Part shown: positions 5,636-22,447 of the stretch, one piece after another
Position numbering within the stretch: position 1 is the first letter of the stretch
Layout of the letters: every line of letters starts with the position of its first letter
Origin: a virus
Strand: one strand, 5' to 3'
IMG/VR virus record: IMGVR_UViG_3300037264_002784
Location: 1-22,447 of that record
DNA: 22,447 bases
Made by a program: the position numbers and the translations under genes
Notes under the pieces: model-generated
Told to the model about the DNA's origin: nothing
The model's database searches: none
Seen by the model: the letters and a program-made list of their open reading frames with translations, nothing else

Positions 5636-6595
5636 GTGTTTACCGTCGCCGAAGTTTGGGACGAGAGCGCCAAAATAATCGGCGCGTGCCCGGAGGTTAC
5701 GCGCTATCGCTGGCTGACGGACGCGGTCGCGTTAATCGCGAATAAGTTAGAGCCAGAGGCGCTCCGGGGATACTGCGACATCTGCACCACGAATTCGGGG
5801 CGCTGCCTGAGCCTGCCCCCAGAAATCTCGACCGTCCTTGCGATCAACATCTGCGGGCACCCGTCGCTTGGTAAAGATGTTCTTTTCAATTTTCACCTTA
5901 ACGGGCCGGGCGATGGATGCGGGGACAAGTGTGAGTATTCGTGGCAGGACCAGGGCGGGGCGCACAGCACCTATCGCGACATCGTCGAACCGGCGAAGCT
6001 CGTGGCTTATCTGCAACGTCAAGAAGACACCGGGTCGTCCTTTATCGTTTACGGCTTTGACTCGTCTGGAAACCGCCTGCGGCATCAAGTTTCTGGCGCG
6101 TGGCGGGAGGGCTACCCGATTCCTACTATCTACGGCTTTGCAATCCCAGACTCGGCGATGCCAGCGATTGCTCGCATAACCGGAGTGCTGAAGGCAGTCA
6201 CGAGCGGCACAGTGCGTCTTAGCACAATTGACGACAGTGGAGCGACTGGGACTACCCTGGGGATTTATGATCCTCTGGAAACGCTACCCCAGTATCGCCG
6301 GATTAAGCTCGGGCGCTGCGCCCCCTGGGTTCGTATTGCATATCGAATCACGAATCCAAAGCTACAGTCCCAGACCGACCGCATTCCGCTGCGCAGCCGA
6401 ACCGCCTTTTTGTTAGGCTTGCGGGCACTGCAATTTTACAACAATCAGGACCTTGCCCTCGCCCAGCAATACGAGGCAAACGCGATGCGGATGGAGATTG
6501 AGGCCCAGCAGGCCGCGGAGTCGCCGACGCTCGCCCCGATCCAGGTCGTCGATTACAACAACCTTCAGGATAAAACGGACGTTTGTATCGTCTAA
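5636..6595 (+). CDS. Tail tubular protein A-like (head-tail adaptor)
   Basis: This 319-aa protein starts at GTG directly after the previous TAA, with AAGGGG (5622-5627) as SD. The first ~45 residues are helical (AEVWDESAKIIGACPEV...), as in adaptor proteins that open with a helical bundle. Near residues 249-267 is IPLRSRTAFLLGLRALQFY, followed by a long helix with QQYEANAMRMEIEAQQAA. This C-terminal pattern is typical of podovirus gp11-type tail tubular proteins, which form the ring under the portal. The next gene is the expected gp12/nozzle-type partner, supporting the call. Cys is enriched in the N-terminal half, including C47-x-x-C50 and a CGDKC motif, raising the possibility of a metal site or disulphides. 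Confidence 0.65.
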   Translation: MFTVAEVWDESAKIIGACPEVTRYRWLTDAVALIANKLEPEALRGYCDICTTNSGRCLSLPPEISTVLAINICGHPSLGKDVLFNFHLNGPGDGCGDKCEYSWQDQGGAHSTYRDIVEPAKLVAYLQRQEDTGSSFIVYGFDSSGNRLRHQVSGAWREGYPIPTIYGFAIPDSAMPAIARITGVLKAVTSGTVRLSTIDDSGATGTTLGIYDPLETLPQYRRIKLGRCAPWVRIAYRITNPKLQSQTDRIPLRSRTAFLLGLRALQFYNNQDLALAQQYEANAMRMEIEAQQAAESPTLAPIQVVDYNNLQDKTDVCIV

Positions 6596-6598
6596 CTT

Positions 6599-8599
6599 GT
6601 GCCTCACATATTCGACATAGATTCCACTTTTTTCAGTGGAATGAAATCGGACACTGACCCGGCGATTGTTCCGCTCGGCGGGTATTGGAGTTCGATCAAC
6701 ACGATAAACGTAGGCGGGCTTCTCTCCTGCCGCCCCGGCTACAAGTGCATAACCAGTCTCCCAGAGGGCAAGCTTCAAGGAGGCGCTCTCTTCCGCCCCC
6801 GCGTCGGCCTCGACCAAGTGGTGATTGTTATCGCGGGGCAGGTCTACGTCGCCCCGTTTCCCTTTACGAGCTTTCGGCTTCTTGAAAACTTGTTGTTCAG
6901 CCCCTTTGCAAAGCAGATTTTTTTCTCGCTCGCGGAGCAGTCGGCGAACCGGCTGACGGGAGACTTCGCCTCAGCTATCGAGCTGATCGACACGCGCCGA
7001 ATTTTATTCATGCAGGACGGCGCAAATACGGCGGCTGCTTGGTATGATGGCAGCAACTCCGGGCACCTCAGGGACGATCCGTTCGGCACCCCAATCGGGG
7101 GCCCGATGGTTTGGTCTGGGGACAGGCTTTGGGTTGCCAACGGTTCGAGCGTATTTGCTTCTGACATCGCCAACCCGTTCAGCTTTCGAGAACAAGTTTA
7201 TCTTGGCGGGAAGACGAGTTTTACTTTCGCCGGAGACGTTACTGCTTTTGCGATTACTCCCAGCGTGGATACGCCCCAGCTCATCGTTTTCACAGACCAC
7301 AACACGTCGATCTTGCAGAGCAACATCCGAGAGCGCGATATGTGGCTGACAACTAATGATTTTCAGCGCGAAATATTCCGGATTGGTTGTGCCTCCCAAC
7401 GCTCTGTTGTGTCCCATTACGGAAGCTTGTCCTGGTTCAGCCAGTCAGGTTTCGTCAACTTCAACGCCGCCGCGACTACCTACATTTCTTCTTATCTGCC
7501 TCAACGGGACAATGAGATGATGATAAGCAAGCGGGCGATGTCTGAAGATTTAAGTCTGGTTGCCGGAGCAGCGTATGGTCAATTTGTGTTGATGAGTGTG
7601 CCGAGTGAGGATAGCTACAACAAGCACACTTGGTGCCTTAACGGCGCGTCATTCCAAACGCTCAATGACGCCTCGCAGCCGAGTTGGAACAGTGTTTGGC
7701 TCGGGACGCGGCCTGTCGAGTGGATTTACGGTCAGATAGTCGGCCAAGAGCGCATCTATCATATCAGCTTTGACTCCGACGGCCAGAACAGGCTTTGGGA
7801 GGCGTTCCGGCCAGAGAGGCTCGATAATGATTGCCCGATCATGTGGGCCGTTCAGACGAGGGGATACTTCGGGCCAACATCCGGGAAAAAACCCCCCACG
7901 CAGCCTTGCCGATTGAATTTTTTCGAGGTGGCCTTGACGAGCATCGAGGAACAGTTGGACGTTGCTATCTTTTGGGCAGGCAGCCAGCGAGGCGCTTTCA
8001 AACGATGTTTTACCAAACAAATCTCTGTCGCCCGCGGCTCGATGGATTTTGAGACCATAATCGACGCATCTGCTAACGTGTTCGCGTTTAAGCCGCAGTC
8101 GCGAAGGCACCGTTCGGAAGAGGTCACGCTACAGACTGATGACACCGACACTATGTCCTGCCCTCCGGAGGACCGGGCTATCGAAAATCGAGATGACTCT
8201 TTCCAGGCGCTCATCGTCGGTCACGGCCCCGCGACAATTCGGTGGATCAAATGCTTTGCGAGTCCCGAGCCCGAAGAGAATGATGCTGGCGAGGCTCCGT
8301 GTGAGGACGAGAACCCCGTAACCGGATCCCGGTATGACGGTGTTCTCGTCTCCGCGGAATCCATTTCGGAAGTAATTGCTGCTCTTGACGCTTTCCGGGA
8401 GGACCATTTTGAGAGTCATGAGACTCTGACGATGACTGGCTTTGGCCTCGCCGCGACGGGGGTCGGCAACTCTGAGAGCATCGTCAGCCAGGAAGCGGCT
8501 GACCGGGTTGCGCTAAGAATCGCGGAGAAGCAAGCCGAGTATGAAATTCTGCGGAGCACGGCTCCGACACTCAGTCTGGGCCTGGGGGACGCACAATGA
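6599..8599 (+). CDS. Tail tubular protein B-like (tail nozzle)
   Basis: This 666-aa protein starts at GTG 6599, three bases after the previous stop, with no obvious SD. It has many short beta segments with W/G-rich turns (AAAWYDGSN near residue 145, then GPMVWSGDRLWVANGSSVF), the look of a beta-propeller as found in gp12-type nozzle proteins of T7-like phages. Those form the distal tail tube through which DNA leaves, with fibres attached around them. Order after a gp11-like gene and length (T7 gp12 is about 790 aa) support this. The last ~70 residues form a helical tail (SQEAADRVALRIAEKQAEYE). The stop overlaps the next ATG (ATGA). Confidence 0.65.
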   Translation: MPHIFDIDSTFFSGMKSDTDPAIVPLGGYWSSINTINVGGLLSCRPGYKCITSLPEGKLQGGALFRPRVGLDQVVIVIAGQVYVAPFPFTSFRLLENLLFSPFAKQIFFSLAEQSANRLTGDFASAIELIDTRRILFMQDGANTAAAWYDGSNSGHLRDDPFGTPIGGPMVWSGDRLWVANGSSVFASDIANPFSFREQVYLGGKTSFTFAGDVTAFAITPSVDTPQLIVFTDHNTSILQSNIRERDMWLTTNDFQREIFRIGCASQRSVVSHYGSLSWFSQSGFVNFNAAATTYISSYLPQRDNEMMISKRAMSEDLSLVAGAAYGQFVLMSVPSEDSYNKHTWCLNGASFQTLNDASQPSWNSVWLGTRPVEWIYGQIVGQERIYHISFDSDGQNRLWEAFRPERLDNDCPIMWAVQTRGYFGPTSGKKPPTQPCRLNFFEVALTSIEEQLDVAIFWAGSQRGAFKRCFTKQISVARGSMDFETIIDASANVFAFKPQSRRHRSEEVTLQTDDTDTMSCPPEDRAIENRDDSFQALIVGHGPATIRWIKCFASPEPEENDAGEAPCEDENPVTGSRYDGVLVSAESISEVIAALDAFREDHFESHETLTMTGFGLAATGVGNSESIVSQEAADRVALRIAEKQAEYEILRSTAPTLSLGLGDAQ

Positions 8600-9708
8600 G
8601 TCTCGACACGCTACAATATTTCTTTCAGCGGGTCCCGCGGCTGGACTATGTCAGCCCGCCGATCTGTGAGGTGGAGTTTTCAAGCAGCGCCACGCCGACG
8701 ATTGTGCTGAATCCGCACGCTCGGAAACTCGGCCCGACCGGGCTTGAATACTTCGTCCAAGACGGCAGGATTTTCTTGCGGTGGAACAACTATCCAGGGG
8801 CGATTTGCTTTAGCATCTACAAAGCGGTGGATGAACTTGACCCCTTTGGGGATTTCCACCTCGTGGCGGAGTGCGTTCAGAGTCCCTTCGACATCGACAG
8901 TTTCGGTCCCGGACTTTTCCGAGTTACTGCCATTACACTTGAGGGCGAGACGGCATTCTCTGAGCCAATCTCTGTTCCTGAAGGTGGCGGTGGTTGCGAA
9001 GCTCCCACGGTCCTCAACGGACCCCTTGACGTGGAAAAAGAGGAAGGAGACACGGCGATTTTCTTTGTCGATGTCAGCGGCACGCAGCCTTTTATCTACC
9101 AGTGGAAGAAAGACGGCATCGACATTCCCGGAGCAAATAGCAGTCAGTTGAATATCGAGGACGTGATGGAGAGCGACGAGGGTCTCTACTCTGTCCACGT
9201 AGAGAATGCGTGTGGCTTTGCTCAAAGTCCGGACGCAGAGTTGACTGTCGATGCGTTTAGCTGCGGGGCTGTGCCCGCTTCGATCCAGGCCGCCGTGTGG
9301 GAAGATAAAGAAGTTCTGTTTCCGTTTGGCGGCGACATCGTCGGCGGGGATGGGTCATTTTCCATCACAGTTACCACTTCGAGCACGGCAGCCAGCAAGA
9401 TAACTTCGGTTTGCAATCCCGGCGCAGAGTATGAAATTGAAGTCAAACTTGTTTGGAATACTTCTGGAACTGTCGTGTTTAATCCAGGCGGCTACCCCGT
9501 CAATGTCGTGCTCATAATAAACGGGATACCAAAAGATGAAGACATCCGGGACGCAGTGACGGGTCCTTTTACCGACATGGTTGTCAATGCAATGCTCCCC
9601 GCTACGTCTACCAGCGCAATTGAAATAAGAGTTGGCTTCTTGGCTATCGGTGCGCCGAGTGCCACTTTCGACGGGACACTCACAGTCCGCCCACTTACAC
9701 CCCCTTAA
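8596..9708 (+). CDS. Tail protein with FN3-like and Ig-like domains
   Basis: The protein is 370 aa and starts by ATGA overlap with the nozzle gene. Residues ~45-130 look like a fibronectin-III-type beta-sandwich, ending FRVTAITLEGETAFSEP. Residues ~135-217 are a clear Ig-like domain of the bacterial Ig_3/I-set pattern: W170 in YQWKKDG, then LNIEDV, and the D194-x-G196-x-Y198 tyrosine corner. The canonical Cys pair is absent, as is common in bacterial members. Residues ~220-370 are another beta-rich domain. Ig-like domains on phage virions typically sit on exposed surfaces and are thought to bind carbohydrates or the host surface weakly. A tail-tip accessory role is inferred. Confidence 0.7.
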   Translation: MSLDTLQYFFQRVPRLDYVSPPICEVEFSSSATPTIVLNPHARKLGPTGLEYFVQDGRIFLRWNNYPGAICFSIYKAVDELDPFGDFHLVAECVQSPFDIDSFGPGLFRVTAITLEGETAFSEPISVPEGGGGCEAPTVLNGPLDVEKEEGDTAIFFVDVSGTQPFIYQWKKDGIDIPGANSSQLNIEDVMESDEGLYSVHVENACGFAQSPDAELTVDAFSCGAVPASIQAAVWEDKEVLFPFGGDIVGGDGSFSITVTTSSTAASKITSVCNPGAEYEIEVKLVWNTSGTVVFNPGGYPVNVVLIINGIPKDEDIRDAVTGPFTDMVVNAMLPATSTSAIEIRVGFLAIGAPSATFDGTLTVRPLTPP

Positions 9709-9712
9709 GATT

Positions 9713-10534
9713 ATGGCCCTTCAAGACACAAATCTGTTACTCCAAGTCGGCAAGCTTCCGCTGCGGTTTCGCGGGACTCCTCAACAATTCGCAGATGAGA
9801 TTGTGCATCGGTCTAAGATCGTTTCACCGTCCGGCGTGAGCTTCATTTTCACGGGCGACGTGGAACCTTCGTCCAACGTGGGGCCTTGGTTCAGGACCGA
9901 CGGCTCGATCTACATTTTTGATGATGTCACGAAACGCTACATCCCGCTGAACATAACGGCGTCGGAGGTGCATTGGTTCTGGACTGGCCCGGATGCTCCG
10001 CCGTCGTCCACGCCCGCGATATGGCTGAAGACCTTTGCGGGTGGCACGACTGACGCCCCTAACACGGGCCAACCGGTAGGATTCTACCAGTTTAACGGCA
10101 CCTCGTGGGTCCCAGTTGGTGTCGTGACGTTGAGCGGTTCGACGGCCTCGCGGCCCGGCGCTCCGTTTGATTTGCAGCAATACTATGACACGGACATCGC
10201 CTGCTTGATCTGGTATGAGCGTGGGTCGTGGCGGACTGTAGCTGGGACTCCCGGCGACGTGAAGGCGTCGATTATCTCGACGTTGACTGAGGCGCTGCGA
10301 TTTAATCCTGGGTGGGAAGTTCTCGGGGCATCAAACGCTCAGGTGCGCGGACGCATTGTTATGCAAGCTTGTAAAGACCCAGGCGGTTCTCCAGAAACTA
10401 GCCTTACTCCGCCTGCGGGGGTGGCTTCGAGGGCGGCGGGGGAGACGTTTGGTGAGACCGACGGTGTCGATACTGGCGCGTTTGCTGTCCCGTATCCGCC
10501 CCAGTATGCCTTATGGCATCTGGTGAAGCTCTAA
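9713..10534 (+). CDS. Tail fibre protein with collar-like C-terminus
   Basis: This 273-aa protein begins at ATG 9713, four bases after the previous stop; an upstream in-frame ATG at 9632 lies within the Ig-protein gene and was rejected. Residues ~20-150 contain Trp/Gly/Asp-rich modules (GPWFRTDGSIYIFDD, WTGPDAPPSST, FYQFNGTSWVPV) typical of phage fibres. Near the end, RGRIVMQA...ASRAAGETFGE resembles the tail-collar motif (GRVPVG...RxxGxxGGE), and YPPQYALWHLVKL matches the usual PPYYALxxIMKL ending of collar and fibre tips. It probably binds the host receptor. Confidence 0.65.
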   Translation: MALQDTNLLLQVGKLPLRFRGTPQQFADEIVHRSKIVSPSGVSFIFTGDVEPSSNVGPWFRTDGSIYIFDDVTKRYIPLNITASEVHWFWTGPDAPPSSTPAIWLKTFAGGTTDAPNTGQPVGFYQFNGTSWVPVGVVTLSGSTASRPGAPFDLQQYYDTDIACLIWYERGSWRTVAGTPGDVKASIISTLTEALRFNPGWEVLGASNAQVRGRIVMQACKDPGGSPETSLTPPAGVASRAAGETFGETDGVDTGAFAVPYPPQYALWHLVKL

Positions 10535-10553
10535 TATTTTACGCACTCAGGTA

Positions 10554-10988
10554 GTGACTGTCCAGGAACTAAAGCCCGATGAACTAGAAGCGCACTTGCT
10601 GCCGCTGGCTCGTTTTATCGCAGGCAGCACGCCGTATCCGGTAAAAACCGATCCGGAGGGCACCGTGAAGCGGTGGAAAGCCTACACGGAGCTCGGCATC
10701 GCCCGGACGTGGGCCCTGCCGGGCGTGGCTATCGGCTGCACGGTCACAGAGCATTTTTTCTCCGGCCTGCCCAGCGGGACGGTTTGTTTTTGGTGGGCGG
10801 ACGAGGCGGCACGGAAGCAGGGACTGGCCCTGTCGGTGTTTAAACACGCCGAGCAACAACTCCGCGAGTCCGGCGTGAGTCTATTGTATTCCTCGGCGCA
10901 CTCCGATCACGAGCACGACAGAATTTGCCGATTTCACGAGCGCAACGGGTTTGAGCGTTGTGAAACAGCGTTTCGTAAACTTTTGTAA
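10554..10988 (+). CDS. GNAT-family acetyltransferase
   Basis: This 144-aa protein fits the usual GNAT size. The acetyl-CoA-binding motif A is seen as EAARKQGLALSV (84-95, the R/Q-x-x-G-x-A/G loop) followed by a helix (FKHAEQQLRESG). Motif B follows as RFHERNGFERCE (126-137), the usual F-Y/H-x-x-x-GF element. Only the N-terminal ~60 residues are unassigned. The substrate cannot be read from the sequence. The GTG start at 10554 is 19 bases after the fibre gene and has no SD. GNATs are often lodged among phage tail genes; targets could be a virion protein or a host molecule. Confidence 0.8.
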   Translation: MTVQELKPDELEAHLLPLARFIAGSTPYPVKTDPEGTVKRWKAYTELGIARTWALPGVAIGCTVTEHFFSGLPSGTVCFWWADEAARKQGLALSVFKHAEQQLRESGVSLLYSSAHSDHEHDRICRFHERNGFERCETAFRKLL

Positions 10989-10994
10989 GTCATT

Positions 10995-11963
10995 ATGGGT
11001 GAAATATTTACAGCCGGTGGTAACATAGCAGCGGCGTCGATCTCCGCGGGCGCGGTCAAAGATGCGACGAACAAACAGATTTCGGCGCTTGAGCGGCAGC
11101 GCCAATTCGTGTATGACGAGCTTTCGCCCGGCAAAATTGGTGCCGTAGCGACCGCGCAGGACGTTCAGCGAACGAAAGACCGGTTGGCGTTGCAGGCCGT
11201 GACTGACCCGGCGCTGCTAGCGACACGTTATGCAGCGTCGCAGAAAATACAACAGGGAGTCGAAGGGCTTGGCGCGGGCGCGGGCGACGTAGTCGCGGCC
11301 CAGGCAGCGACGGAGGCACTAGCGAGTCAGGCCGGGCCGAATGCGCTCAAACAAAAGTTGATCGACGCCGCCCTCGCAGAAATTGATGCCGGTGCGTCAC
11401 TGCCGAACGATTTGCAGGCCGAGCTGGTGAAGTCCGGCCTTGAGCGTGCGGGCTCTGTCACCCCCGGCGCGTCCCCGAATGGGGTGGGCGGCACCATCGC
11501 CAGAGAGCTTATCGGCAAAGCTGGCATTGAATTAAAGGCCCAGCGGCAAGGGCGGGCGGCGGCTTTGGCCAACGCCGCGCAGGGACTCGAAGCCCAGCGG
11601 GCCTCTCTGCTTGGCTCACTTTTCCCGTCGCTAAAACAGACTCAGATTGCAAATTTGCAGGAGTCACAGAGGGCTTTCGGCACTTCGAACACCGCTGTCC
11701 CGGAAGCGGGCATCGGCGGTTCAGACGTAGCCAACCTCTGGCTGGCTCGTGTCGGTGCCACGAATCAACTCGCGCAGAGTGCGGCTGACGCTGCGGCTCG
11801 TGGAGGTATGGCCAACGCCCAGATTTGGAATCAGGGCATCGGATCTGCGACGGAAGCGATTGGGAGTGAGCTGCCCAAGACAGATTATGGGAAGCTGTTT
11901 GGTAACATTTTTTCGTCCCCCAAGACCGACTCTAACGCGTCCATCGCAGCCGCCTTCGCTTAA
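10995..11963 (+). CDS. Internal virion protein, gp14-like
   Basis: The protein is 322 aa and very Ala/Gln-rich. It opens with a short Gly/Ala-rich hydrophobic segment (about residues 7-20, GGNIAAASISAGA) followed by long predicted helices, including TNKQISALERQRQFVYDEL and QRQGRAAALANAAQGLEAQR. The first of three consecutive ejection proteins in T7-like phages, gp14, is a small helical protein that inserts in the host outer membrane. The position ahead of a 516-aa and a 1912-aa protein, the size and the composition fit that role. A family signature was not seen, so the call rests mostly on order. Confidence 0.55.
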   Translation: MGEIFTAGGNIAAASISAGAVKDATNKQISALERQRQFVYDELSPGKIGAVATAQDVQRTKDRLALQAVTDPALLATRYAASQKIQQGVEGLGAGAGDVVAAQAATEALASQAGPNALKQKLIDAALAEIDAGASLPNDLQAELVKSGLERAGSVTPGASPNGVGGTIARELIGKAGIELKAQRQGRAAALANAAQGLEAQRASLLGSLFPSLKQTQIANLQESQRAFGTSNTAVPEAGIGGSDVANLWLARVGATNQLAQSAADAAARGGMANAQIWNQGIGSATEAIGSELPKTDYGKLFGNIFSSPKTDSNASIAAAFA

Positions 11964-12697
11964 TGCCCTCTCGATTTTCAATCTCAGGCTGGAGAACGAG
12001 CACGATTGCCCCGAAGTTTAGTGTGCAGCCGTCGGTGCCGCGGCCTTCCTCGTCCGTAGGTCCAGTCAATGCTCCGGCCACAGCCGCGAGCTTTGCGCTC
12101 ACCCCTCAAACGTTACGAGACCCCGTGTTGGGCAGTCGTGCGTATGGCTCGACAATCCCAGGCACGGTCAAACCGGCATTCGCGGAGTCTGTGTATCAGC
12201 GACCTGAGGTGCCCGCATACTTGGCGCAAGCAGTGACCGATCTGAACACTGAGCAGGCGCTCAAACGCAGCCTGCAAAGTGAGTGGAACAGCAAAATCCT
12301 CGGACTCGCCCAGGGCGGGGGCCCGAACAACTACTTGTTTCAGGAGGCGCTCCGTGCGGCTTCCGTGTCGCCGGGAGCTCACGTAAACTTCGGGGCCGCT
12401 GTTCAAAATCCAGACATCGGCACAGGCTATTTGCAGGCTGCTCAAGGCCAGAGGGCCGAAGCCACGGCCAGAGCCGCGGCAATCAGTGCTCCGCAGCAAC
12501 ACCAACAGCAGATTGCCGCTTTGCAAAAAGAACGTCAGCAGCTAGGGGCCAATTCGTTTGGAATGTATAGTGGCTCGCGTCAAAAAGCTATTGACGATCA
12601 GCTTTTTCAGTTGCAAACTCAACTCGCCGGGGCAAATCAAGTGGCTTCGGGACAGAATCGAACTTCTGGCTGGACCCCCGCACCGCTGCCCTATTGA
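11963..12697 (+). CDS. Coiled-coil virion-associated protein, function unknown
   Basis: The protein is 244 aa and starts by TAATG overlap with the previous gene. The first ~75 residues are rich in Ser, Pro, Ala and Thr and likely disordered. The middle is helical (VPAYLAQAVTDLNTEQALKR). Residues ~170-225 look like a coiled coil with many Gln (QHQQQIAALQKERQQLG...DDQLFQLQTQLAG). There is no TM segment or enzyme motif. Its place inside the ejection cassette suggests an internal virion or DNA-ejection component, possibly a partner of the gp14-like protein. Confidence 0.55.
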   Translation: MPSRFSISGWRTSTIAPKFSVQPSVPRPSSSVGPVNAPATAASFALTPQTLRDPVLGSRAYGSTIPGTVKPAFAESVYQRPEVPAYLAQAVTDLNTEQALKRSLQSEWNSKILGLAQGGGPNNYLFQEALRAASVSPGAHVNFGAAVQNPDIGTGYLQAAQGQRAEATARAAAISAPQQHQQQIAALQKERQQLGANSFGMYSGSRQKAIDDQLFQLQTQLAGANQVASGQNRTSGWTPAPLPY

Positions 12698-12701
12698 TTT
12701 T

Positions 12702-12800
12702 ATGACGGAGACACAACGAATCTGCTTTCATTATTCAAACCTTCAACCAATGTGGGCGAAGGACAACATTTCTAAAGGAGCAAAATATCATGGGTCTTGA
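12702..12800 (+). pseudogene. Remnant of an HNH homing endonuclease C-terminus
   Basis: In the 92-base gap between two virion genes, ATG 12702 opens a 32-codon frame with the core FHYSNLQPMWAKDN followed by ISKGAK, and TGA at 12798-12800. The pattern C/F-HYTNLQPLWAxDNxxKG is the well-known C-terminal end of HNH (His-Me finger) endonucleases of phages, where the Asn follows the metal-binding His region. The catalytic part is missing: upstream in this frame lies only the preceding virion gene. It therefore looks like the scar of a deleted endonuclease gene. Its last 11 bases overlap the start of the next gene, and it contains that gene's SD. It might still be translated as a 32-aa peptide. Confidence 0.6.
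12774..12780 (+). promoter_or_regulatory. Strong ribosome binding site for the 516-aa virion protein
   Basis: AAAGGAG lies 9 bases before ATG 12790. It is the clearest SD in the window; most other genes start with weak or no SD directly after the preceding stop. It fixes the start of the 516-aa protein and lies within the endonuclease remnant. Confidence 0.85.
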
Positions 12801-14340
12801 GAGCGCCCCCACGCGAGGGATAACGGTTGAGCCGCGCAGTTTAGTGTCTGCGGGCGATACAAATTTGGTGACTCCTACAGCGGTCGAGGCTCTCACAGAC
12901 GCCTTCAGAAAAGGCGCAATCACTACTTCGGACATCGCTCTTCGCCAACAACAGAAGCAAAAAAATCAAATTGACATCGAAGCTGCCCAGCGCGAGCAGG
13001 ATTTTCAGAACGACCCGATGATCCAGGAAGTCCGCAAGACTGTCGCAATTGCTGCCGGGGCGAAGGCGAAGTCGGACACTGAGAGGGCCAAGCGCGAGGC
13101 GGACCTCGCACCGCTGCTTGAAACTGCGGAGCGGGCGAGAACAATCCGCGCCATCGACGCAGACAGAACCCTCGGCGAGTCCGAGAAAATGGCGGTAAAA
13201 TTTCAGGCCGCGGGCGTCGAACTGCCAAAAACTCCAGAAGGTTTTGTGGATGTCGCCGCGGCTCGGCAGAGCGAAGACGAGATCAACGAGTGGGCCCGCA
13301 GTGTGATTCACGATGCTGAGGTCGCAAAATCTGTGAAGTTCGAGAAGCGCAAGGCTGCGAACGGCTCTGTCCAGGTCGCCCCCTTTTCTGAAACGCTGGG
13401 CCGATTCCTGACAGATACAGAATTTACTTCGATAAAATCAAAGGAGGGCCAGCCCCAGACGTTTAATGCGTGGAGGAAGGCAGGGCGCGTGGTCGCGGAC
13501 GCTCCCCCGGTCGCGCAGTTGTCCCCGGAAGAGGCGGCGATGCACCGGGCGAACTTGGTGAACTCCGGTCAGATTGCTCCCGAAGATGGACTCAGTGACT
13601 CCGCTGTGTCGGAGTTAGTCCAGCGCCGGACAACCCCGAAGGTGGATATTTTTTCGACCGCTGCACCGGGGTTAGCCCAGCGCCGGACAACCCCGAAGGT
13701 GGATATTTTTTCGACCGCTGCGCCGGACAGAACAATCGAAGAAGCCCCTGACAAGGTGGTTGTCGAAAAACCAATACCGGGCGAGGGAGTGAGAGAGTTG
13801 GCGCTGGCGCGTCAGGCTGTTGGCATCGGCGAGCGACTGAAACAGCGATACGAAGACTTGCTCAAGTCTGAGCCAAACCTGGTTGGGTTTTTGCAAGGTC
13901 GCGTCGCATCCTGGGCTTCGACGCGGCAGTGGAATGAAAAGGTCGCTGCGTTCGAGCGAGACTCTACCGCGATCCTCGCCCCGCTCGCAAAGGGTATTTT
14001 TAATGAGACCGGCGTCCTTTCAGATAAAGACATCGCACGGTATCAGTCAGTCATACCTGACATCCGGGACAACCCGAAAGTCGGTGTCCAAAAGGCCAAC
14101 GATTTGCTCGGTGAAGTTTTTGAGTCATTTGCAAACAAAGTCGAAAGCTGGAGTCAGGCCGGATATAACGCTGGCGGATTTGCTGATCTGGCGGAGACGA
14201 ATAGGGCTAAGTTAAAACAGCTTCGATCTGAGACTGGAGCTGCACAGCCAGTGCCCGCGACAGCCAACAAGCCCGTGACCCTCAGTAGCGGACGGAAAAT
14301 AGTTAGAGGCAGCGATGGTAAACTTTACGAGGTTCAATAA
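12790..14340 (+). CDS. Internal virion / ejection protein (516 aa)
   Basis: The protein is mostly helical. Residues ~35-135 are highly charged coiled-coil-like sequence (ALRQQQKQKNQIDIEAAQRE...). A Pro/Thr-rich linker with a 19-residue duplication follows at 278-315. Residues ~335-480 form a helical domain with F404-N-E-T-G408-VLSDKDIARY, an element common near the C-terminus of internal or DNA-ejection proteins of podoviruses. It ends with a small SGRKIVRGSDGKLYEVQ module. Size and place correspond to the middle ejection protein (gp15-like), which with gp16-like proteins makes the conduit across the envelope. Its TAA overlaps the ATG of the giant gene (TAATG). Confidence 0.6.
   Translation: MGLESAPTRGITVEPRSLVSAGDTNLVTPTAVEALTDAFRKGAITTSDIALRQQQKQKNQIDIEAAQREQDFQNDPMIQEVRKTVAIAAGAKAKSDTERAKREADLAPLLETAERARTIRAIDADRTLGESEKMAVKFQAAGVELPKTPEGFVDVAAARQSEDEINEWARSVIHDAEVAKSVKFEKRKAANGSVQVAPFSETLGRFLTDTEFTSIKSKEGQPQTFNAWRKAGRVVADAPPVAQLSPEEAAMHRANLVNSGQIAPEDGLSDSAVSELVQRRTTPKVDIFSTAAPGLAQRRTTPKVDIFSTAAPDRTIEEAPDKVVVEKPIPGEGVRELALARQAVGIGERLKQRYEDLLKSEPNLVGFLQGRVASWASTRQWNEKVAAFERDSTAILAPLAKGIFNETGVLSDKDIARYQSVIPDIRDNPKVGVQKANDLLGEVFESFANKVESWSQAGYNAGGFADLAETNRAKLKQLRSETGAAQPVPATANKPVTLSSGRKIVRGSDGKLYEVQ
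13621..13734 (+). repeat. 57-bp in-frame tandem duplication
   Basis: Two copies with a 57-bp period start at 13621 and 13678. The first ~50 bases of each are nearly identical, including a T6 run; one difference is CTGCACC versus CTGCGCC. Similarity also extends a few bases to the left (GTTAGTC versus GTTAGCC). The unit encodes QRRTTPKVDIFSTAAPGLA. Such high identity suggests a recent event, probably replication slippage. Confidence 0.95.
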
Positions 14341-17300
14341 TGGCACTAATTCCCGCCAATCTCACGCCCGCCGAACAGGCGGAGTTCGACAGCCTTTCGT
14401 CTGATGCCGGAGTGCCCCCTGGGGCGAAGCCTTTCGACCCGGTCGCCGAACTCGATGCCGCAGGACTCGCGGAGCTCGCCGACAATAAACTTTTCGACCC
14501 AGTTGAATGGGCGTCCGGGAATTACTCTGCGGCCCTCGATCCAGCTACTCTTCAAAAGCTCGCCGATGCCAACGCGATAATCCGCCAGAAAGGTTTTCAG
14601 CTCAAGGACCTTCCGACCGTCAAGGAGGCCGTCGGCGGGGTGGGGCACCTGTTCAAGGGGGCCGCAAAGGTTATCCGGAACGTCGGCAGCATTGCGACCG
14701 CACCCCTTGTCAGTCTGGCGGGAGATATTACGGGGCAGGGGCCGGAGTTTGGGGCAGAGGTGGGGAACATCGTGACCAAGCAGGCGGGAGAATCCGTTGC
14801 AGGAATCGAGCAGGCGGGTCACGGCTTGGTTGAGTTGGGACGGAAGACAGGAGGAAAACTCATCCGGAAAACCATCGGAACGAACTATGGAGAGATGACG
14901 CCCGACCAGCGGAAAGACGCTTTTCTAGCGGATCTCGGAAACGCCCAAGTGGCGCAGGAAATTTCAGTTGGCCAGGGACCATTCACGCAGGCCGTCGCCG
15001 GTCAGTTCATCGAAGACTTGGGCAAGCAGGGCATCAAACTCGATCCTGCGGAGATTGCCGATCTGAGCGCCGGAGACCCGATCACGTTCATCGCATTCGG
15101 CAAAGGTTTTCACCTCCTCGGGAAGTCCGGCAAGGTTCTCGGGTTCGCTCCAACAGTTCAGAAGGCGCAGCAGGCCGTCGCCACACTCAGTCAGCGGGTC
15201 GCTGGCAAAGTCGTCCAAGCCGCGGGCGTGACCGCAGAGGGCGCGGGAAAAACTGTCGGGGTTGTCAGCCCGGCGCTGCCGGTCGCGGGCGCAGTTGTGG
15301 GCGGCATCAAGGGCGGGCCCATTGGGCTGCTTGGCGGGCTGAAGACTGGCGAAATCGCAGCCAAGACCGTCGAAAAATTCAGCGAGCAGGCCCAGTCGGT
15401 CGGCGGTAAAATCACTCAGTTCGGGAAACAGATTGGCGGCGAGGCAGCCGTCACGTCGCCCTACGCTCAGGCCATCCGGGACGTTATTAAGGTCGCCCCG
15501 CCCGTCATCACGGAACTCGCGAAGGGCGCGGGACTCGACCTTGGACTGGCGGCAGTGTCGTCTGAAACCCCGCAGGAGACCGCGGCTACATCGGCCTTCG
15601 GGACACTTTTTGGGCTAGCCGGTGCTGCCGGACGGGTCGTCAAAGCCGGAGTGCAGGGCCAGCTCCTCACCGCTCGCCCCTGGGGCACCGCTGCCGAGTC
15701 GAAGCCGTATGGAACGAGTGCTTCTCTCGACGCGAAGCACGCTGCCGCCCAGCAGACTCTACCGCCTGCCGTCACCCAGCGGGCCAATTCAATCCGCGAG
15801 TTCTTGCGGGCTCTTCCCGGAAACGTTCAAGCGTATCTGATGCCCGACAAGGCGGCGACGGAAAGTTTCCTCGTCGAGGACTACACACGGCGATACGGCG
15901 TCGCGCCCGCGGGCGAGGCGCTGGCTAACATCAAGAATGCGGCCAGCCAGCGGGGCATGATTAATTATGATACCATCGCGGATGACGGGAGCCGGAAGCG
16001 AGTCGTGTTGCTCAACGACGTTGAAGCGGCCCCGCACGAGGCATTCCACGGAATCCAGGACGTGCTCGGTGACTCGGGCAACGCGGCGATTGACCGGATT
16101 ATTTTTGACCAATACTTCGACCGTTGGGAAGACATCGGAGAAAACTACGCCCAGCGACTGACTGGTGGAAACATGCAAGGCAAGGCGTGGCGCGACATAA
16201 TCACGGAGCGAACTGGCACCGCCAATCCCGACCGCTATATGGCCCGGGAAATTGCGGCAGAGAACTTCGACACGGTTTTCAAAAATCTCGGAGGCTCGCT
16301 GACCGAAGGAAACTCGCTGCCACAGAAACTCGCCCGCGTGGTCGCGAAGACAATGAATCTGTTCGGTGCCGAACCTTTTTCTGGCGGTCAAACCGCAGGT
16401 CTTCGGCTTGAGCCAAAGTTCGGAGTGTCTGAAGAGGTCAAGCGACTGGTGAGCGGCGTTACCGAAGTGGACGCCACGCCCCTCGTGGTGCCGCGGGCCC
16501 CCGTGACCCCGACGAAGCCGGTTATTGTCCCCGCCGCGCCCGCGCCAGCGCCAAAGGCGGCTGCTCCTCCGACTTCGAGCGTCGTCGGCGTGTCGCCGGA
16601 CGCCAAAGCTGCCCAAGTTTGGGCTGCAAACACAAACGACCCGCGACTCGTCGGCGTAGTCAATAATATCGTGGCGAATCAGTTACGGGCCGCGCCGGGC
16701 GAGGCCGCGCCTGTTCGCCTGAAGTATCTCAGCGTCGCCGGGGCCGAAGGCGCAACACGAACTCCGCGACGGTCTGAGCAGGAGGCTGCGTATCTCCGGG
16801 AAGCTCTCGGCGCAATGCCTGCGGAAACTCGCCAAGAGGTCGAGAAGACGCACGCCCACGTCCGATTTGATCCGGTGAAAAAAGGCAACGAGATGCAGTC
16901 GATCGGCTACAGCCTCGAAAAAATTGTCGAGAATGCGCAGAGGGCCGCGAAGTGGCTGGCGGGAAACGAAAAGGCCCGGTCGATTTCACCATATGCGGTC
17001 GATGTGGCCGCGGGGAGCTTCACGCCGGACGCGTGGAAGCAACTCGTCTCGGACATCCAGACCTACACGGTGAACCAGCAGGCGGGCGGAACGGGGGCCG
17101 GTAAGACGCTCAAGCTGCCGAAGAACGCCGCGGAGCTCAAGATCAGCGTTCCGCCCGAGCAAGCCGCAAAGCTCGCCCCGCTTGAACAGAGCCGGGCCGA
17201 CTTCATCAACACGCTGATGGGCCTCAAGCTGCCAGAGACGACTCGGGTGTCTCGCGCCGGGGGCACCCCAGGCAACATCGTTGGGCAGGAGATTTCAAAG

Positions 17301-20078
17301 GCTAATGAGCAACCGTTCATTCAGCCCCGCGTTTCAGAACCCGCCGTGCAGCGTGCAGGCGGCAAAGAGTTTCCAGGTTTTGCCGGGAAGACCATCAAGG
17401 AAGTCAACCCACTGCGTCGGCAGCTCGAAGAGGCCGGTTTTCCCGTCAACGAATTGACGGAAGTGGTCGAGCGGGTCAACCTGAAGAACCTGGAGGGCGT
17501 AACGCCCGCTCCGGAAGTCCAGTTTCGACCGGGCGTCACCGACACCATCCGCGCCGGGTTCTTGCCCTTGGCACCGGTAAAAGATAAGCCGAAGTGGTTG
17601 GTGAAGGGACAAAAGGGAGGTCTGAAGACCCAGGCAGAATTTGAAGGCGCTGACCCGATAGAGGCCCGCAAAAAGGCCGAAGCTAAAGGATTCCGCGTGT
17701 CCTCAGTTGAGCGGTCTGCCGCGACGGCGTTGTCGATTGACAAAGAGTCTAGCTTTCAGTTCTCCCCGAAGGAGAGCATCAAAAGCGTCGATGAGGCCGC
17801 GGACGTGAGCGAACTTATCCGGCGCTGGGAAGGCGGACAGACAGGCGAATCTTTCAGAGTCGGAGAGTCGGTCCGGACGATGGAAGAGGTAAAAGCTCTC
17901 CGCGAGGCAGAGAAAAAATGGACAGACATCGGGTTGAACGCCCGCAAGTTGCGAGACTACCAGGCCATGATCACGGCGGGAGTGAAGAGCCAATTTTTCC
18001 GGGAGGCCCGGGAGGCGGCTACTGGCGAGGGCGGAGCCGTGGATTTTATCCGGAAAACTAATCCGGATTACGTTCCACCAGTGCCCCACGAGGACTTTGG
18101 GACGAAGTTTATTTCACAGAGTCCCGCAAAACAGATCGACGTTGCAGCTAACCTTACGCTGGAAAGTTTCCGCGATTGGGCGAAACAACAGAAGGGCGGA
18201 TTCACTACGTCGGCCATAAAACTCGGCGAGGCAGCCTCCCGAGACCCCGAGTTGCTGTTCAAGATTCGCGAGCAGCACGAGGCCGCGGATGCCCGGTTTC
18301 AGGAAGCGGCAGCCAAGGAGGACATCGACACCATGATGTTGTCCTCGATGCAGACTCAATTTTTCAGAGAGGCAGACCAGTCGGCCACAAACACCGGAGG
18401 CATCGGTGAATTTAAGCGCGGCGAGCAGCAATTCTCGCCGAAGGAAGAGGACCCCTACGCCAAATATAACGTCGATTTTGAGAAGGCCGTCACCAAGCGG
18501 AAGACCAAAGGCGGGACAAGGGGCATCACGGGGTGGATTCTGCCGAATAACAAACTCGTCCCGCTGTCTACCAATTTCCATGAGCAGTATCTGGCTGAAA
18601 ATCATGCAGACCTGAACAAAAAGTTTGGAACTAAATTCAGCGAAACCGCTGATGTCGATGAGCGGCAGCAGGCGCTTGACCAGGGCTTCATTCGGCTGCG
18701 TATGCAAAGCGGCACACTGCATGTCGAGGCGGGGCAAGCCGGTTGGACAAAGGCGGCTCGCGACAAAGTTTTTGAGACGGTCGCCGACAATATCGACAAC
18801 ATCGACCAAATCACGGTCAGCTTGCTAGACAAGAACGGCATAGTCAAGCGCCAGGGACACGAGCGCCTGATGGACTATGACACGGACGCCGAGAAGCTAG
18901 ACAACCTGCCGCTGATTAATGAGGGCCGCGGGGCATTTTTACCGGCTGAGGCCGAGAACCTGCCGGGCATGGACGTAGGTCGCGAGTTCAACAGGGCTGC
19001 GATCCAGCAAATGAACAAGCAGGAATTGCGGGCGCACTTTCCAGAAGCCATCGTGCCGCGCAGCAGCGACGAACTGATTGCGTCGAACATCGTCGGCTCG
19101 CCGCTCGCGAAGCAGGAGGGTGGCCGCGAGGCGGGTGTCGAGGCGTTCGCGAGCACGCTCGCAGATTTTTACAAGTCTGTTGCTGACCAACCAGAGGTAA
19201 AAGCAGGAGCGGAGTGGTATTCAAAGTTCACGCCGATGCTCAAAAAGGAGTTTGGAAAAGACGCCCCGATTTTTGCAGAGTTGCTCGCGGCTACGTCCCC
19301 GCAGACCGATCCTACCGTGAATTTCGGATATGCCTTCGATGCTTACGAAGGTTTCAAGGCCGGAAAATACGACAAGCAAATCGAGAAGTTCCAGGAAGGT
19401 CTGACGCGCCTTGAGGACGGCTCATTGGCTAAAATCTACGACCGCGATGTGAAATCTGGAAAGGTTAATAGTCCTCCAGAGAGTCCGAGCGATTCTACTT
19501 ATCTGGCCCACTGGATAGCGAAACACAATCTCGTTCCAAAAAGCTCCAACGACAAACTTTTCGGAACTCACTCGATTCGCGTTCTCCAGGTGCTTGCTCG
19601 AAAGTGGTTGGAACTTAATGCCGGGCCGAAGACGAGTAACTTTGTGAAAAATTTGCTTGGCACCGGCTCAGAATCCACGATTGATCTCTGGGCGGCACGC
19701 ACGATGCGCAGAATTGGATACTCTGGATTCAAAGACCGGTGGCGTATTTTGCCAGAAAATGCGACAGGGGTTTCAGATGAAGACTTCGCTTTTTCTCAGG
19801 AAGCTTTCCGCGCAGCCGCCGACAAACTCGGTATGAAACCGTCTGCACTTCAAGGCGCTCTCTGGTTCGCGGAAAAGCGACTATGGGCAGACCGAGGTTG
19901 GGGGCGTCTGAATTTAGGAGATTACCGGAATGAAATGAAGAAGATTCCACTCTTGCGCCGGGGTATCAAGCAGCGAGAAGAAGCGGTTCGGTTGGGCCAG
20001 AAGGCAGGGTCCGCCGAACAAGAAGCTTTGAATCTCGGTTTGACAATCGAGCCAAGGCAGAGTAAGGTTGGACGATGA
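14340..20078 (+). CDS. Giant multidomain ejection/polyvalent protein (1912 aa)
   Basis: This protein is likely packaged in the virion and ejected with DNA, like gp16-type proteins. It begins by TAATG overlap with the 516-aa gene; GAGG (14329-14332) is an SD. Visible parts: residues 100-440, Gly/Ala-rich hydrophobic stretches (e.g. about 310-340 and 391-437) that could insert in membrane; 505-690, a metallopeptidase-like domain with H566-E-A-F-H570 and a possible third ligand at E637 or E641; 711-755, a Pro/Ala linker; 1083-1122, a small alpha/beta module; QFSPKE at 1140 and 1364, and QFFREA at 1218 and 1340; 1372-1540, a domain starting GWILPNN...; about 1600-1830, an HhH-GPD DNA-glycosylase-like domain with SPQTDPTVN (1653-1661), GPKTS (1762-1766) and D1782. 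No lytic transglycosylase motif was found. Enzyme assignments are by eye. Confidence 0.7.
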   Translation: MALIPANLTPAEQAEFDSLSSDAGVPPGAKPFDPVAELDAAGLAELADNKLFDPVEWASGNYSAALDPATLQKLADANAIIRQKGFQLKDLPTVKEAVGGVGHLFKGAAKVIRNVGSIATAPLVSLAGDITGQGPEFGAEVGNIVTKQAGESVAGIEQAGHGLVELGRKTGGKLIRKTIGTNYGEMTPDQRKDAFLADLGNAQVAQEISVGQGPFTQAVAGQFIEDLGKQGIKLDPAEIADLSAGDPITFIAFGKGFHLLGKSGKVLGFAPTVQKAQQAVATLSQRVAGKVVQAAGVTAEGAGKTVGVVSPALPVAGAVVGGIKGGPIGLLGGLKTGEIAAKTVEKFSEQAQSVGGKITQFGKQIGGEAAVTSPYAQAIRDVIKVAPPVITELAKGAGLDLGLAAVSSETPQETAATSAFGTLFGLAGAAGRVVKAGVQGQLLTARPWGTAAESKPYGTSASLDAKHAAAQQTLPPAVTQRANSIREFLRALPGNVQAYLMPDKAATESFLVEDYTRRYGVAPAGEALANIKNAASQRGMINYDTIADDGSRKRVVLLNDVEAAPHEAFHGIQDVLGDSGNAAIDRIIFDQYFDRWEDIGENYAQRLTGGNMQGKAWRDIITERTGTANPDRYMAREIAAENFDTVFKNLGGSLTEGNSLPQKLARVVAKTMNLFGAEPFSGGQTAGLRLEPKFGVSEEVKRLVSGVTEVDATPLVVPRAPVTPTKPVIVPAAPAPAPKAAAPPTSSVVGVSPDAKAAQVWAANTNDPRLVGVVNNIVANQLRAAPGEAAPVRLKYLSVAGAEGATRTPRRSEQEAAYLREALGAMPAETRQEVEKTHAHVRFDPVKKGNEMQSIGYSLEKIVENAQRAAKWLAGNEKARSISPYAVDVAAGSFTPDAWKQLVSDIQTYTVNQQAGGTGAGKTLKLPKNAAELKISVPPEQAAKLAPLEQSRADFINTLMGLKLPETTRVSRAGGTPGNIVGQEISKANEQPFIQPRVSEPAVQRAGGKEFPGFAGKTIKEVNPLRRQLEEAGFPVNELTEVVERVNLKNLEGVTPAPEVQFRPGVTDTIRAGFLPLAPVKDKPKWLVKGQKGGLKTQAEFEGADPIEARKKAEAKGFRVSSVERSAATALSIDKESSFQFSPKESIKSVDEAADVSELIRRWEGGQTGESFRVGESVRTMEEVKALREAEKKWTDIGLNARKLRDYQAMITAGVKSQFFREAREAATGEGGAVDFIRKTNPDYVPPVPHEDFGTKFISQSPAKQIDVAANLTLESFRDWAKQQKGGFTTSAIKLGEAASRDPELLFKIREQHEAADARFQEAAAKEDIDTMMLSSMQTQFFREADQSATNTGGIGEFKRGEQQFSPKEEDPYAKYNVDFEKAVTKRKTKGGTRGITGWILPNNKLVPLSTNFHEQYLAENHADLNKKFGTKFSETADVDERQQALDQGFIRLRMQSGTLHVEAGQAGWTKAARDKVFETVADNIDNIDQITVSLLDKNGIVKRQGHERLMDYDTDAEKLDNLPLINEGRGAFLPAEAENLPGMDVGREFNRAAIQQMNKQELRAHFPEAIVPRSSDELIASNIVGSPLAKQEGGREAGVEAFASTLADFYKSVADQPEVKAGAEWYSKFTPMLKKEFGKDAPIFAELLAATSPQTDPTVNFGYAFDAYEGFKAGKYDKQIEKFQEGLTRLEDGSLAKIYDRDVKSGKVNSPPESPSDSTYLAHWIAKHNLVPKSSNDKLFGTHSIRVLQVLARKWLELNAGPKTSNFVKNLLGTGSESTIDLWAARTMRRIGYSGFKDRWRILPENATGVSDEDFAFSQEAFRAAADKLGMKPSALQGALWFAEKRLWADRGWGRLNLGDYRNEMKKIPLLRRGIKQREEAVRLGQKAGSAEQEALNLGLTIEPRQSKVGR

Positions 20079-20277: not shown

Positions 20278-20964
20278 ATGCCAAACGAACAAGACCTGAT
20301 ACAGCCGAAAGCGCCAGCGGCAAACGAACAAGATCTGGTTCAGCCAAAAAATCCTACCCCCAAGCCTGCCGTCGTCGAACCTACGACTCCCGATGCGGCA
20401 CCCCCCGCGCAAGATACTAAATCTCAAGAGAGCGGTCTTTCGGAGGAGGTTTTGCGAATTCCCACCGTGGCCGCATTGATGGCGGGTAATCCCCCTGCTG
20501 CAAGCGGATCAATCCAGGATTTTTCTAAGCGTCCAGAGGGAGTCGCAATTTCCAAGAACAAAGATGCACTGCTGTCCGCGGGTTTCTTTTTCTATAAAAG
20601 CTTGGACGGGTCAACAGGAGTCCTGGGGAATGGCCTCTACATTCATCCAGAGCAAATCAAGCAAGCCGACCAAACCGGGAATCTGCAAGCAGTCGCCCCA
20701 AACTTCGACACCGTGGGACAAGCCGTCGCTACATCCGGCGACAAGCATCCCGTTCTCGCGCACGGCGGGAAGCCCCCAGAGGGTTTTGCTACCGCGCCAG
20801 CAGCGGATGTCCCCCAGACGGCGAACGCCCCCGCCCCGCCCGCTGGCGTTCAGAATAAGCTGACCCGGGCGAGGTTGGCCACAATCGCCCCAGGGCCCCC
20901 GACCTCGGGGCCAAAGCCCGGCGCAGGGCGGCTTATCAACAGTATCCTCAAGAACCCCGTCTGA
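20278..20964 (+). CDS. Pro/Ala-rich low-complexity protein, possible virion component
   Basis: The protein is 228 aa from ATG 20278; a TTG at 20263 is possible but less likely. It opens with a 13-residue duplication, NEQDLIQPK and NEQDLVQPK, encoded by a 39-bp DNA repeat (from 20282 and 20321). Residues ~65-165 look folded, with hydrophobic core segments (VLRIPTVAALMAG, DALLSAGFFFYKSLDG, GNGLYIHPEQIKQAD). The C-terminal ~60 residues are Pro/Ala/Gly-rich, ending GAGRLINSILKNPV. No family was recognised. It is the last + strand gene, and its 3' end overlaps the convergent HNH gene by 17 bases. Confidence 0.6.
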   Translation: MPNEQDLIQPKAPAANEQDLVQPKNPTPKPAVVEPTTPDAAPPAQDTKSQESGLSEEVLRIPTVAALMAGNPPAASGSIQDFSKRPEGVAISKNKDALLSAGFFFYKSLDGSTGVLGNGLYIHPEQIKQADQTGNLQAVAPNFDTVGQAVATSGDKHPVLAHGGKPPEGFATAPAADVPQTANAPAPPAGVQNKLTRARLATIAPGPPTSGPKPGAGRLINSILKNPV

Positions 20965-21430
20965 AGTTGGGACAGGCGAATTCCCCGAAGTGTTCCAGGG
21001 CCGCAGCGTCGTAGGCGCGGGCTGCGTCTTCTTCATTGTGGAAACGCCCTAGAAAGAACTGCTTTCCATTTGTCTCCAGTTTTGAAAACCATCGTTTGCA
21101 TCTGGCGTCCCAGCTAACCCCTCTGAACTTCGACGTGGTGGCATAGGTGTGCGGTTTGGAGCGGAAGGAGAAACAGTTTTCCTGATGGGCGCAGATTCTC
21201 AGATTGTGCCTGCGGTTGTTCAATCCGTCTCCGTCGATATGATCCACGCTCTGGCCAGGTTTCGCACCAGTAATTAGTCGGTGCATCTTGGCTTGTTTAC
21301 CGACCTGTCCGCAACAAGCGTAAAATTTTCCTTGCTTGTTTTTACGGGCACACCAACGACGTCCTGCAATCAATCCCACGTCTTTTAGGTCGATCTCTGC
21401 CCACTGCCCTTGGGTAAGGTGAATCCTCAT
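20948..21430 (-). CDS. HNH homing endonuclease with AP2 DNA-binding domain
   Basis: This 160-aa free-standing endonuclease has both expected domains. The HNH_3-type nuclease centre is at 50-78: H50-R, then D63-H64-I-D66-G-D68, with N71/N72-R-R and N76-L-R78. The AP2 domain fills 98-160: KFRGVSWD, then RWFSKL, then FLGRFHNEEDAARAYDAAA. All key residues are present, so it appears intact. Such enzymes cut related phage genomes lacking the gene and so spread by homing. The ATG overlaps the stop of the upstream phosphoesterase gene (ATGA), so it is translated from that mRNA. The 3' end overlaps the convergent + strand gene by 17 bases. Confidence 0.9.
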   Translation of the reverse strand: MRIHLTQGQWAEIDLKDVGLIAGRRWCARKNKQGKFYACCGQVGKQAKMHRLITGAKPGQSVDHIDGDGLNNRRHNLRICAHQENCFSFRSKPHTYATTSKFRGVSWDARCKRWFSKLETNGKQFFLGRFHNEEDAARAYDAAALEHFGEFACPNFRRGS

Positions 21431-22447
21431 TGTGCGGCAAAGTTCTCCGGCAGTTCAAAATCATGGGGTGTGGAATCACCTAAATCAACGCGAATGTCGT
21501 AGCAGGCGCTTCGACCATAAGCTGGATGCACCAGAAACAGCTTTTGCGACGGGAAGCTCGGCACGAAGCCGGACATCAGCGCGTATCCGTCGAGTCCAGG
21601 GAAGCCGCCATTGATGATGACTTCACCAAGGGCGTGCGGTAAGGTAATCGGACGATGTAGATGTCCGAACAAGTAGTAGTTCGGCGCTCTGCGGTTCGTC
21701 GTGGCAAACATTTGCACGGTGCTGGACACACTTCGACCAACCGAATGGTTCGGGATGCCCAGCGCCTTATCCCCGCCCTTGAGGTGGTCCCCGTGACCGC
21801 CATAAAAGGCATACCCCTGCACGTCAAAGAGTGCGAATGGCTGTGTGTCCAGCTTGAAGCTGACCCGCTCATTGTCTCGGAGCAGCGCGGCGACGTAGGC
21901 GTAGAGAAACTGATCGAGGTTCGAGTAGCGGTTCTCGGTCGGCATCTTGTGCTGCGTGCCCCAGCGGGTGTGGTTGCCGACGGCGGTCACGATGCGGAGC
22001 GGTGCCAGATGACTGAGGCGTTGGAAAAACTGGGCGATTGCGTGCCCGGCGCTATAGAACTGAGTGAACAGCGTATTATGCTGACCCGCCTCCGCGGCGT
22101 GGTTCAGGCTGCCGTCGAGCATGTCGCCGAGCATGGCGACGACGATTTCTGGCACCGTGGTCGTGGTATGATCCTGCAAAATCGAAGTGACCGACCGCTC
22201 CAGGCGCTTGAGGCGGCGAAGGAAAAGGTCGTAATTGTAGCCGCCGAACCCGAGCGTCTGGTCTGGTTTCACCACTTTGCCGACGTGTGTGTCACTGAAC
22301 ACGAGAAGGGCGCTCTGCGGGCTACCGTTCTTGCCGACCTTGCGGGCGAGCATCGCATTGCCGTCGGGCGTCTGATAGGACTTTGGCGCGAGTTCGACGG
22401 CGTGCTCAACGAGAACATCTATTGCCGTCTGGTTTTTCTGCGACTTT
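21427..22447 (-). CDS. Calcineurin-like metallophosphoesterase, 5' end outside the window
   Basis: All core motifs of the family are present, numbered from the internal ATG at 22353: D21-T-H23, G76-D77-M-L-D80-G, G126-N-H128, G186-H-G-D and G230-H-L-H233. These bind two metals and hydrolyse phosphodiesters or phosphomonoesters. The frame stays open for a further 31 codons to the window edge and reads like ordinary protein (VLVEHAVELAPKSYQ...), so the true start lies beyond 22447 and the 308-aa version is N-terminally short. Phage members are often called Mre11/SbcD-like, but the substrate is unknown. It lies on the opposite strand to the virion genes and is transcribed leftwards together with the HNH gene. 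Confidence 0.85.
   Translation of the reverse strand, partial: KSQKNQTAIDVLVEHAVELAPKSYQTPDGNAMLARKVGKNGSPQSALLVFSDTHVGKVVKPDQTLGFGGYNYDLFLRRLKRLERSVTSILQDHTTTTVPEIVVAMLGDMLDGSLNHAAEAGQHNTLFTQFYSAGHAIAQFFQRLSHLAPLRIVTAVGNHTRWGTQHKMPTENRYSNLDQFLYAYVAALLRDNERVSFKLDTQPFALFDVQGYAFYGGHGDHLKGGDKALGIPNHSVGRSVSSTVQMFATTNRRAPNYYLFGHLHRPITLPHALGEVIINGGFPGLDGYALMSGFVPSFPSQKLFLVHPAYGRSACYDIRVDLGDSTPHDFELPENFAAQ

Follow-up and report, generated by a model that had tools for sequence, protein, structure and literature searches.

OGG2 DNA glycosylases carry a strictly conserved C-terminal lysine, the carboxylate of which senses 8-oxoG, and C-terminally truncated OGG2 loses 8-oxoG excision while keeping its AP-lyase activity (PMC3397491). 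Phage polyvalent proteins are described as conflict proteins injected with the phage DNA (Iyer et al. 2017, PMC5512222), and the word "glycosylase" is absent from the main text of that paper. Phages also encode solo proteins of ~200 residues that belong to the family DUF7178. Some of these already carry depositor labels in GenBank that read "N-glycosylase", "glycosylase" or "N-glycosylase/DNA lyase" (for example, "N-glycosylase" for Mycobacterium phage Kumao gp115 and "N-glycosylase/DNA lyase" for Synechococcus phage S-CRES3 gp63), and the glycosylase idea is therefore not new for the solo form. DUF7178 and the corresponding PHROG family, phrog_3842, have no function assigned in Pfam or PHROGs, and we found nothing on DUF7178 in the open-access literature.

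Here, we analyzed a 22,447-base virus fragment (IMG/VR record IMGVR_UViG_3300037264_002784), referred to below as the window, the DNA of which has no near match among 50,697 phage records. It encodes a giant protein, P0001, in which a DUF7178 domain forms the C-terminal part (Table 1). To judge from the open-access literature that we searched, no OGG2-like HhH-GPD domain has apparently been described in a phage protein of this giant, probably ejected kind.

Table 1. Coordinates of the features of the window discussed in the text.
Feature	Position (nt)	Strand	Residues	Basis or remark
Virion-type gene block ahead of the giant gene	5636..14340	+		PHROG matches, gene order in relatives; members 5636-6595, 6599-8599, 8596-9708, 9632-10534, 10554-10988 (GNAT), 10995-11963, 11963-12697, 12790-14340
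Giant polyvalent-type protein gene (P0001)	14340..20078	+	1912 aa	ORF; blocks shared with the 2000-3000-aa proteins of relatives
HEAFH	16035..16049	+	566-570	HExxH motif, known from the zincin metallopeptidases in polyvalent proteins; motif only
DUF7178 / HhH-GPD (OGG2-like) glycosylase domain	19113..19925	+	~1592-1862	Pfam match, AlphaFold2 model, VIA-align
ELLAATSPQTDPTVN	19278..19322	+	1647-1661	Helix end and loop equivalent to endonuclease III LLSAQATDVSVN
GPKTSNF	19623..19643	+	1762-1768	Helix-hairpin-helix loop; holds the predicted catalytic lysine, K1764 (nt 19629-19631)
IDLWAAR	19680..19700	+	1781-1787	Helix start; holds the predicted catalytic aspartate, D1782 (nt 19683-19685)
C-terminal segment	19851..19904	+	1838-1855	Like the OGG2 C-terminal segment until W1842, then extended

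The giant protein carries a conserved DUF7178 domain with glycosylase-type motifs

When the giant protein was scanned against Pfam and PHROG families, its C-terminal part matched Pfam DUF7178 (PF23802) with an E-value of 3e-13 and 50.6 bits, against a curated cut-off of 27, and phrog_3842 with an E-value of 2e-11. The Pfam HhH-GPD and Ogg-HhH models did not match the domain even at an E-value of 10, and an NCBIfam scan gave no match. An earlier note on this DNA, made from its letters, had proposed an endonuclease III-type HhH-GPD glycosylase at this place. Its three motifs lie where it had put them, with K1764 and D1782 indeed 18 residues apart, and its location of the domain was right, the extent being slightly wider than it had assumed. 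Within the GxG hairpin, the second glycine is kept in most proteins (GPK), and the first is replaced.

The two catalytic-type residues are conserved among homologues, as the earlier note had required. K1764 and D1782 are invariant in 76/76 giant-protein domains, a set collected with a search pattern that included the aspartate and not the lysine, and the equivalent residues are invariant in 79/79 solo homologues, for which the search pattern lay far from both. Given this conservation, together with the predicted folds and the profile alignment described below, the resemblance to glycosylases is more than chance. Further invariant positions in the giant set include W1626, Y1627, S1653, N1661, F1768, N1771, G1774, T1780, W1784, A1785, R1787, Q1838 and W1842.

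Predicted structures and profiles place the domain in the HhH-GPD superfamily, nearest to OGG2

An AlphaFold2 model of residues 1570-1889, built from 32 rows, reached a pLDDT of 93.8 and a pTM of 0.90. In it, K1764 opens helix 194-203, and D1782 immediately precedes helix 214-224. In HhH-GPD enzymes, the catalytic aspartate and, in the bifunctional members, the catalytic lysine occupy the same places. Foldseek alone gave no meaningful match for this model. After re-alignment with VIA-align, which only re-ranks Foldseek candidates and gives high Z-scores more commonly with helical folds, ranks 1-13 were all HhH-GPD glycosylases, with Z falling from 11.0 to 5.2, and the next, unrelated, row had a Z of 4.6. 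MjOgg (3KNT) came first (Z 11.0, rmsd 3.7 over 181 residues, model residues 38-293), followed by TmOgg (Z 10.6) and then by endonuclease III, MutY, AGOG and others. A separate AlphaFold2 model of a solo phage protein, made from different sequences (pLDDT 91.6), was re-ranked in the same manner, and glycosylases took 50 of the 50 matches listed, headed by MjOgg (Z 13.2), SsOgg (12.7) and TmOgg (12.7). Foldseek alone ranked human OGG1 (hOGG1) first for this solo model, with a probability of 0.97 and an E-value of only 0.057. The relation to glycosylases thus surfaced only after VIA-align re-alignment and with the shorter solo model.

For comparison at the level of sequence profiles, we collected OGG2 proteins (PF22175) from the genomes of archaea and endonuclease III/MutY-type proteins (PF00730) from those of bacteria. 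Using hhalign, the combined DUF7178 profile aligned to that of OGG2 over 160 columns with a score of 36.5 (P 2e-4), with the two lysines, the two aspartates and the C-terminal tryptophans each in register, against scores of 12.0 for the reversed profile and at most 16.3 for 30 column-shuffled profiles. The alignment to endonuclease III scored 25.1, also with lysine and aspartate in register. The hhalign probability for OGG2 was only 46%, so sequence alone is insufficient to settle this relation.

Considering these results, we are nearly certain, as far as predicted models can tell, that the domain has the two-domain helical fold with the HhH-GPD core and belongs to the superfamily; the structure prediction that the earlier note had proposed as a check returned HhH-GPD glycosylases as the best matches of both models. 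We consider it highly improbable that an unrelated all-helical domain mimics the GPD motif by chance. Such a resemblance would account for the weak evidence from sequence against the PDB, where profiles of three alignments found no glycosylase among the chains, and for Z-scores inflated by helical folds. It would leave unexplained, however, why HhH-GPD proteins fill the best rows of both models, with Z dropping at the unrelated rows in the first, why the catalytic residues fall in register with those of OGG2 by profile, and why the solo chain end is placed as in OGG2.

The label "endonuclease III-type" holds for the superfamily but not for the nearest relative, and the domain is better read as OGG2-like, because OGG2 leads both the model matches and the profile scores, whereas endonuclease III, MutY and AGOG are more distant. 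With endonuclease III and MutY (PF00730), the domain shares the HhH-GPD fold, the Lys-Asp spacing of 18 and an LLSAQATD-like helix end, whereas its structural (Z 7-8) and profile scores are lower than with OGG2. The four-cysteine Fe-S cluster motif of endonuclease III, which is not universal in that family, is absent from the domain sequence. OGG2 proteins (MjOgg 3KNT/3FHF, SsOgg 3FHG, TmOgg 3N0U; PF22175) are the best structural match of the giant and solo models alike, and they share with the domain the Lys-Asp spacing of 18, an LW segment near the C-terminus and the lack of the OGG1 A-domain. They differ from it in sequence (~10-16% identity), in the first hairpin glycine, which is lost in the domain, and in lacking the insert that giant forms have between the SPQT loop and the HhH.

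Giant and solo forms mostly separate within one family

A scan of viral contigs yielded 245 relatives, of which 80 loci were retained. The proteins of these loci range from ~930 to 4150 residues, and the domain is sometimes C-terminal, as in P0001, and sometimes central. Solo relatives were found in 128 of 50,697 phage records and in 359 confirmed stretches of viral contigs. The giant-type query retrieved only 8 contigs from cellular genomes, all metagenome-assembled and themselves probably from phages, and we therefore rejected a cellular origin of the giant-type domain.

Solo and giant forms have the family, the catalytic lysine and aspartate and a key tryptophan in common. The solo proteins, such as Kumao gp115 and S-CRES3 gp63, differ in consisting of a single, unfused domain and in being encoded mostly in early-type gene clusters. 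Several phages have the solo gene in their first or last cluster of genes, or next to the phage RNA polymerase gene, a position that suggests early expression. In some records of Gordonia phages (ClubL, Smoothie, Cucurbita and others), the solo match covers two annotated genes, perhaps a split or frameshifted copy.

In a tree of the family, 32 of 33 giant-type rows group together on a single branch with full support, away from the solo rows. The giant protein of Virus Rctr197k (KX853510, 146011-152130), which also carries the domain, sits among the solo rows and is possibly an independent fusion; its branch is long, which makes the placement unsure.

Giant forms run past the chain end at which OGG2 senses 8-oxoG

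The OGG2 chain ends exactly 9 residues past the conserved tryptophan in 25 of 25 proteins. Solo DUF7178 proteins stop at the same position in 69 of 93 cases, many of them close relatives, and nearly all others end 6 to 13 residues past the tryptophan; the terminal residue is usually valine or isoleucine, and the C-terminal lysine of OGG2 is not conserved in DUF7178 proteins. None of the 80 giant proteins ends there. They extend 36 to 2148 residues past the tryptophan, with conserved residues E1845, K1846, W1849 and W1854 in the extension beyond W1842. Because their chains run past its position, giant forms would have to be cleaved at that point to make use of the OGG2 sensor, and their substrate therefore probably differs from, or is broader than, 8-oxoG. 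The comparison of chain ends thus yields a concrete prediction, namely a change of substrate between the solo and giant forms.

The same comparison bears on whether the fold has been kept without glycosylase activity, as a DNA-binding module or an abasic-site-binding or AP-lyase module that pulls in, compacts or protects DNA. The HhH is a DNA-binding motif, and every giant protein runs past the point at which truncated OGG2 retains only its lyase activity (PMC3397491). The strict invariance of both lysine and aspartate, however, exceeds the needs of DNA binding, and we regard such a loss of function as quite unlikely. We consider the domain rather likely to be active, as a glycosylase or as an AP lyase.

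The giant gene lies behind tail genes and resembles polyvalent protein genes

The series of genes preceding the giant gene is largely the same in the window and in three related phage contigs (G208, G210 and G213), and in several related phages the giant gene is placed behind tail genes. A further contig (G219) has the order terminase large subunit, head-tail adaptor, tail protein (phrog_376), two genes and the DUF7178 protein. In T7-like phages, internal virion proteins are encoded at this position, after the tail genes; the location therefore fits ejection of the giant protein.

Polyvalent proteins combine several disparate enzymatic domains in a virion-gene context, and P0001 has a glycosylase-like domain, an HExxH motif and neighboring virion genes; its remaining parts have no family assignment. 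It resembles phage polyvalent proteins in its giant size near virion genes and in the HExxH motif. Its sister proteins resemble them in their partner domains, which comprise ART-PolyVal and, with weaker matches, GNAT and methyltransferase domains. It differs from them in that no named LPD domain was detected in P0001. The region around HEAFH has no Pfam match in P0001; HEAFH also occurs in the N-terminal part of a close relative (L001), and HExxH is missing from many other relatives.

From these features, we infer that P0001 is quite likely packaged and ejected with the genome. Alternatively, the domain may be real and the giant protein unpackaged, being made late and acting in the cell or during assembly. 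A tblastn search with two giant-type domains (L034 and L049) against the 50,697 phage records matched no cultured phage, which is compatible with such a protein, whereas the gene position, the large size, the HExxH motif and the polyvalent neighbors fit ejection, and we hold this alternative to be unlikely.

A putative glycosylase that would enter the cell with the phage genome

Combining these lines of evidence, we consider it likely that the C-terminal domain is an OGG2-like HhH-GPD glycosylase of an ejected polyvalent-type protein, the likeliest role of which would be repair of the incoming genome. The DUF7178 domain would most likely work as OGG2 glycosylase/AP lyases do: the hairpin (GPK) would hold the DNA backbone, the target base would be flipped into the pocket, and K1764, assisted by D1782, would attack C1', so that the base is released and the abasic site subsequently nicked. 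Since the polyvalent-type protein of which it is a module probably travels in the particle and is ejected with the genome, the domain would be active within minutes of the onset of infection; phages that encode the solo form seem to achieve this timing through early expression. Damaged or deaminated bases of the incoming genome could in this way be cleared or nicked before replication, with later repair steps supplied by the host. A search of 13 related phage contigs, which may be incomplete, detected neither of the AP endonuclease families PF03372 and PF01261, and repair would therefore need host enzymes. Repair of the incoming genome would be the simplest use of such an enzyme.

The main rival of a repair role is counter-defence or an attack on host DNA, in which the same fold and active site would serve to excise a modified or normal base, or to break abasic sites, in the DNA of the host or of a rival phage, hindering host replication or defence. 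Several observations agree with this use: the description of polyvalent proteins as injected conflict proteins (PMC5512222), the effector-like partner domains of sister giants such as ART-PolyVal, the location of several solo genes in early-type gene regions, and the giants' lack of the chain-end sensor for 8-oxoG. On the other hand, the chain end of the solo proteins still resembles that of OGG2, as would suit damage repair, and we judge the offensive use possible but unlikely. It is similarly a tentative idea that this phage clade injects a glycosylase in which the OGG2-type sensor has been replaced by the conserved extension (E1845, K1846, W1849, W1854), which would confer a new base specificity, for example for a modified base of host defence or of rival phages.

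A family that is widespread in phages and has no assigned function is thereby given a predicted fold and a testable active site, and base excision is indicated as an activity that phages bring in at entry or turn on early. The results suggest that, in some phages, a base-excision enzyme is delivered along with the genome.

Other features of the giant protein and the window

The best conserved part of the giant protein outside the glycosylase domain is a block at 16743-17567 (residues ~802-1076), with 35-39% identity in several relatives and no match to a known family. A second block, at 18534-18944 (residues 1399-1535, TRGITGWILPNNKLVPLSTNFHE...), is conserved at 42-43% with two other giants (L008 and L010), likewise with no family match. 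The GNAT acetyltransferase gene among the virion genes before the giant gene has weak relatives (23% identity) at the same place in two of the related contigs (G213 and G210). Elsewhere in the window, a presumed fibre protein with collagen-like GTN repeats is encoded at 3521-4201, and the protein encoded at 8596-9708 has an Ig-like domain. Directly after the giant gene, on the opposite strand (20948-22353, -), lie an HNH endonuclease and a phosphoesterase/exonuclease (phrog_284).
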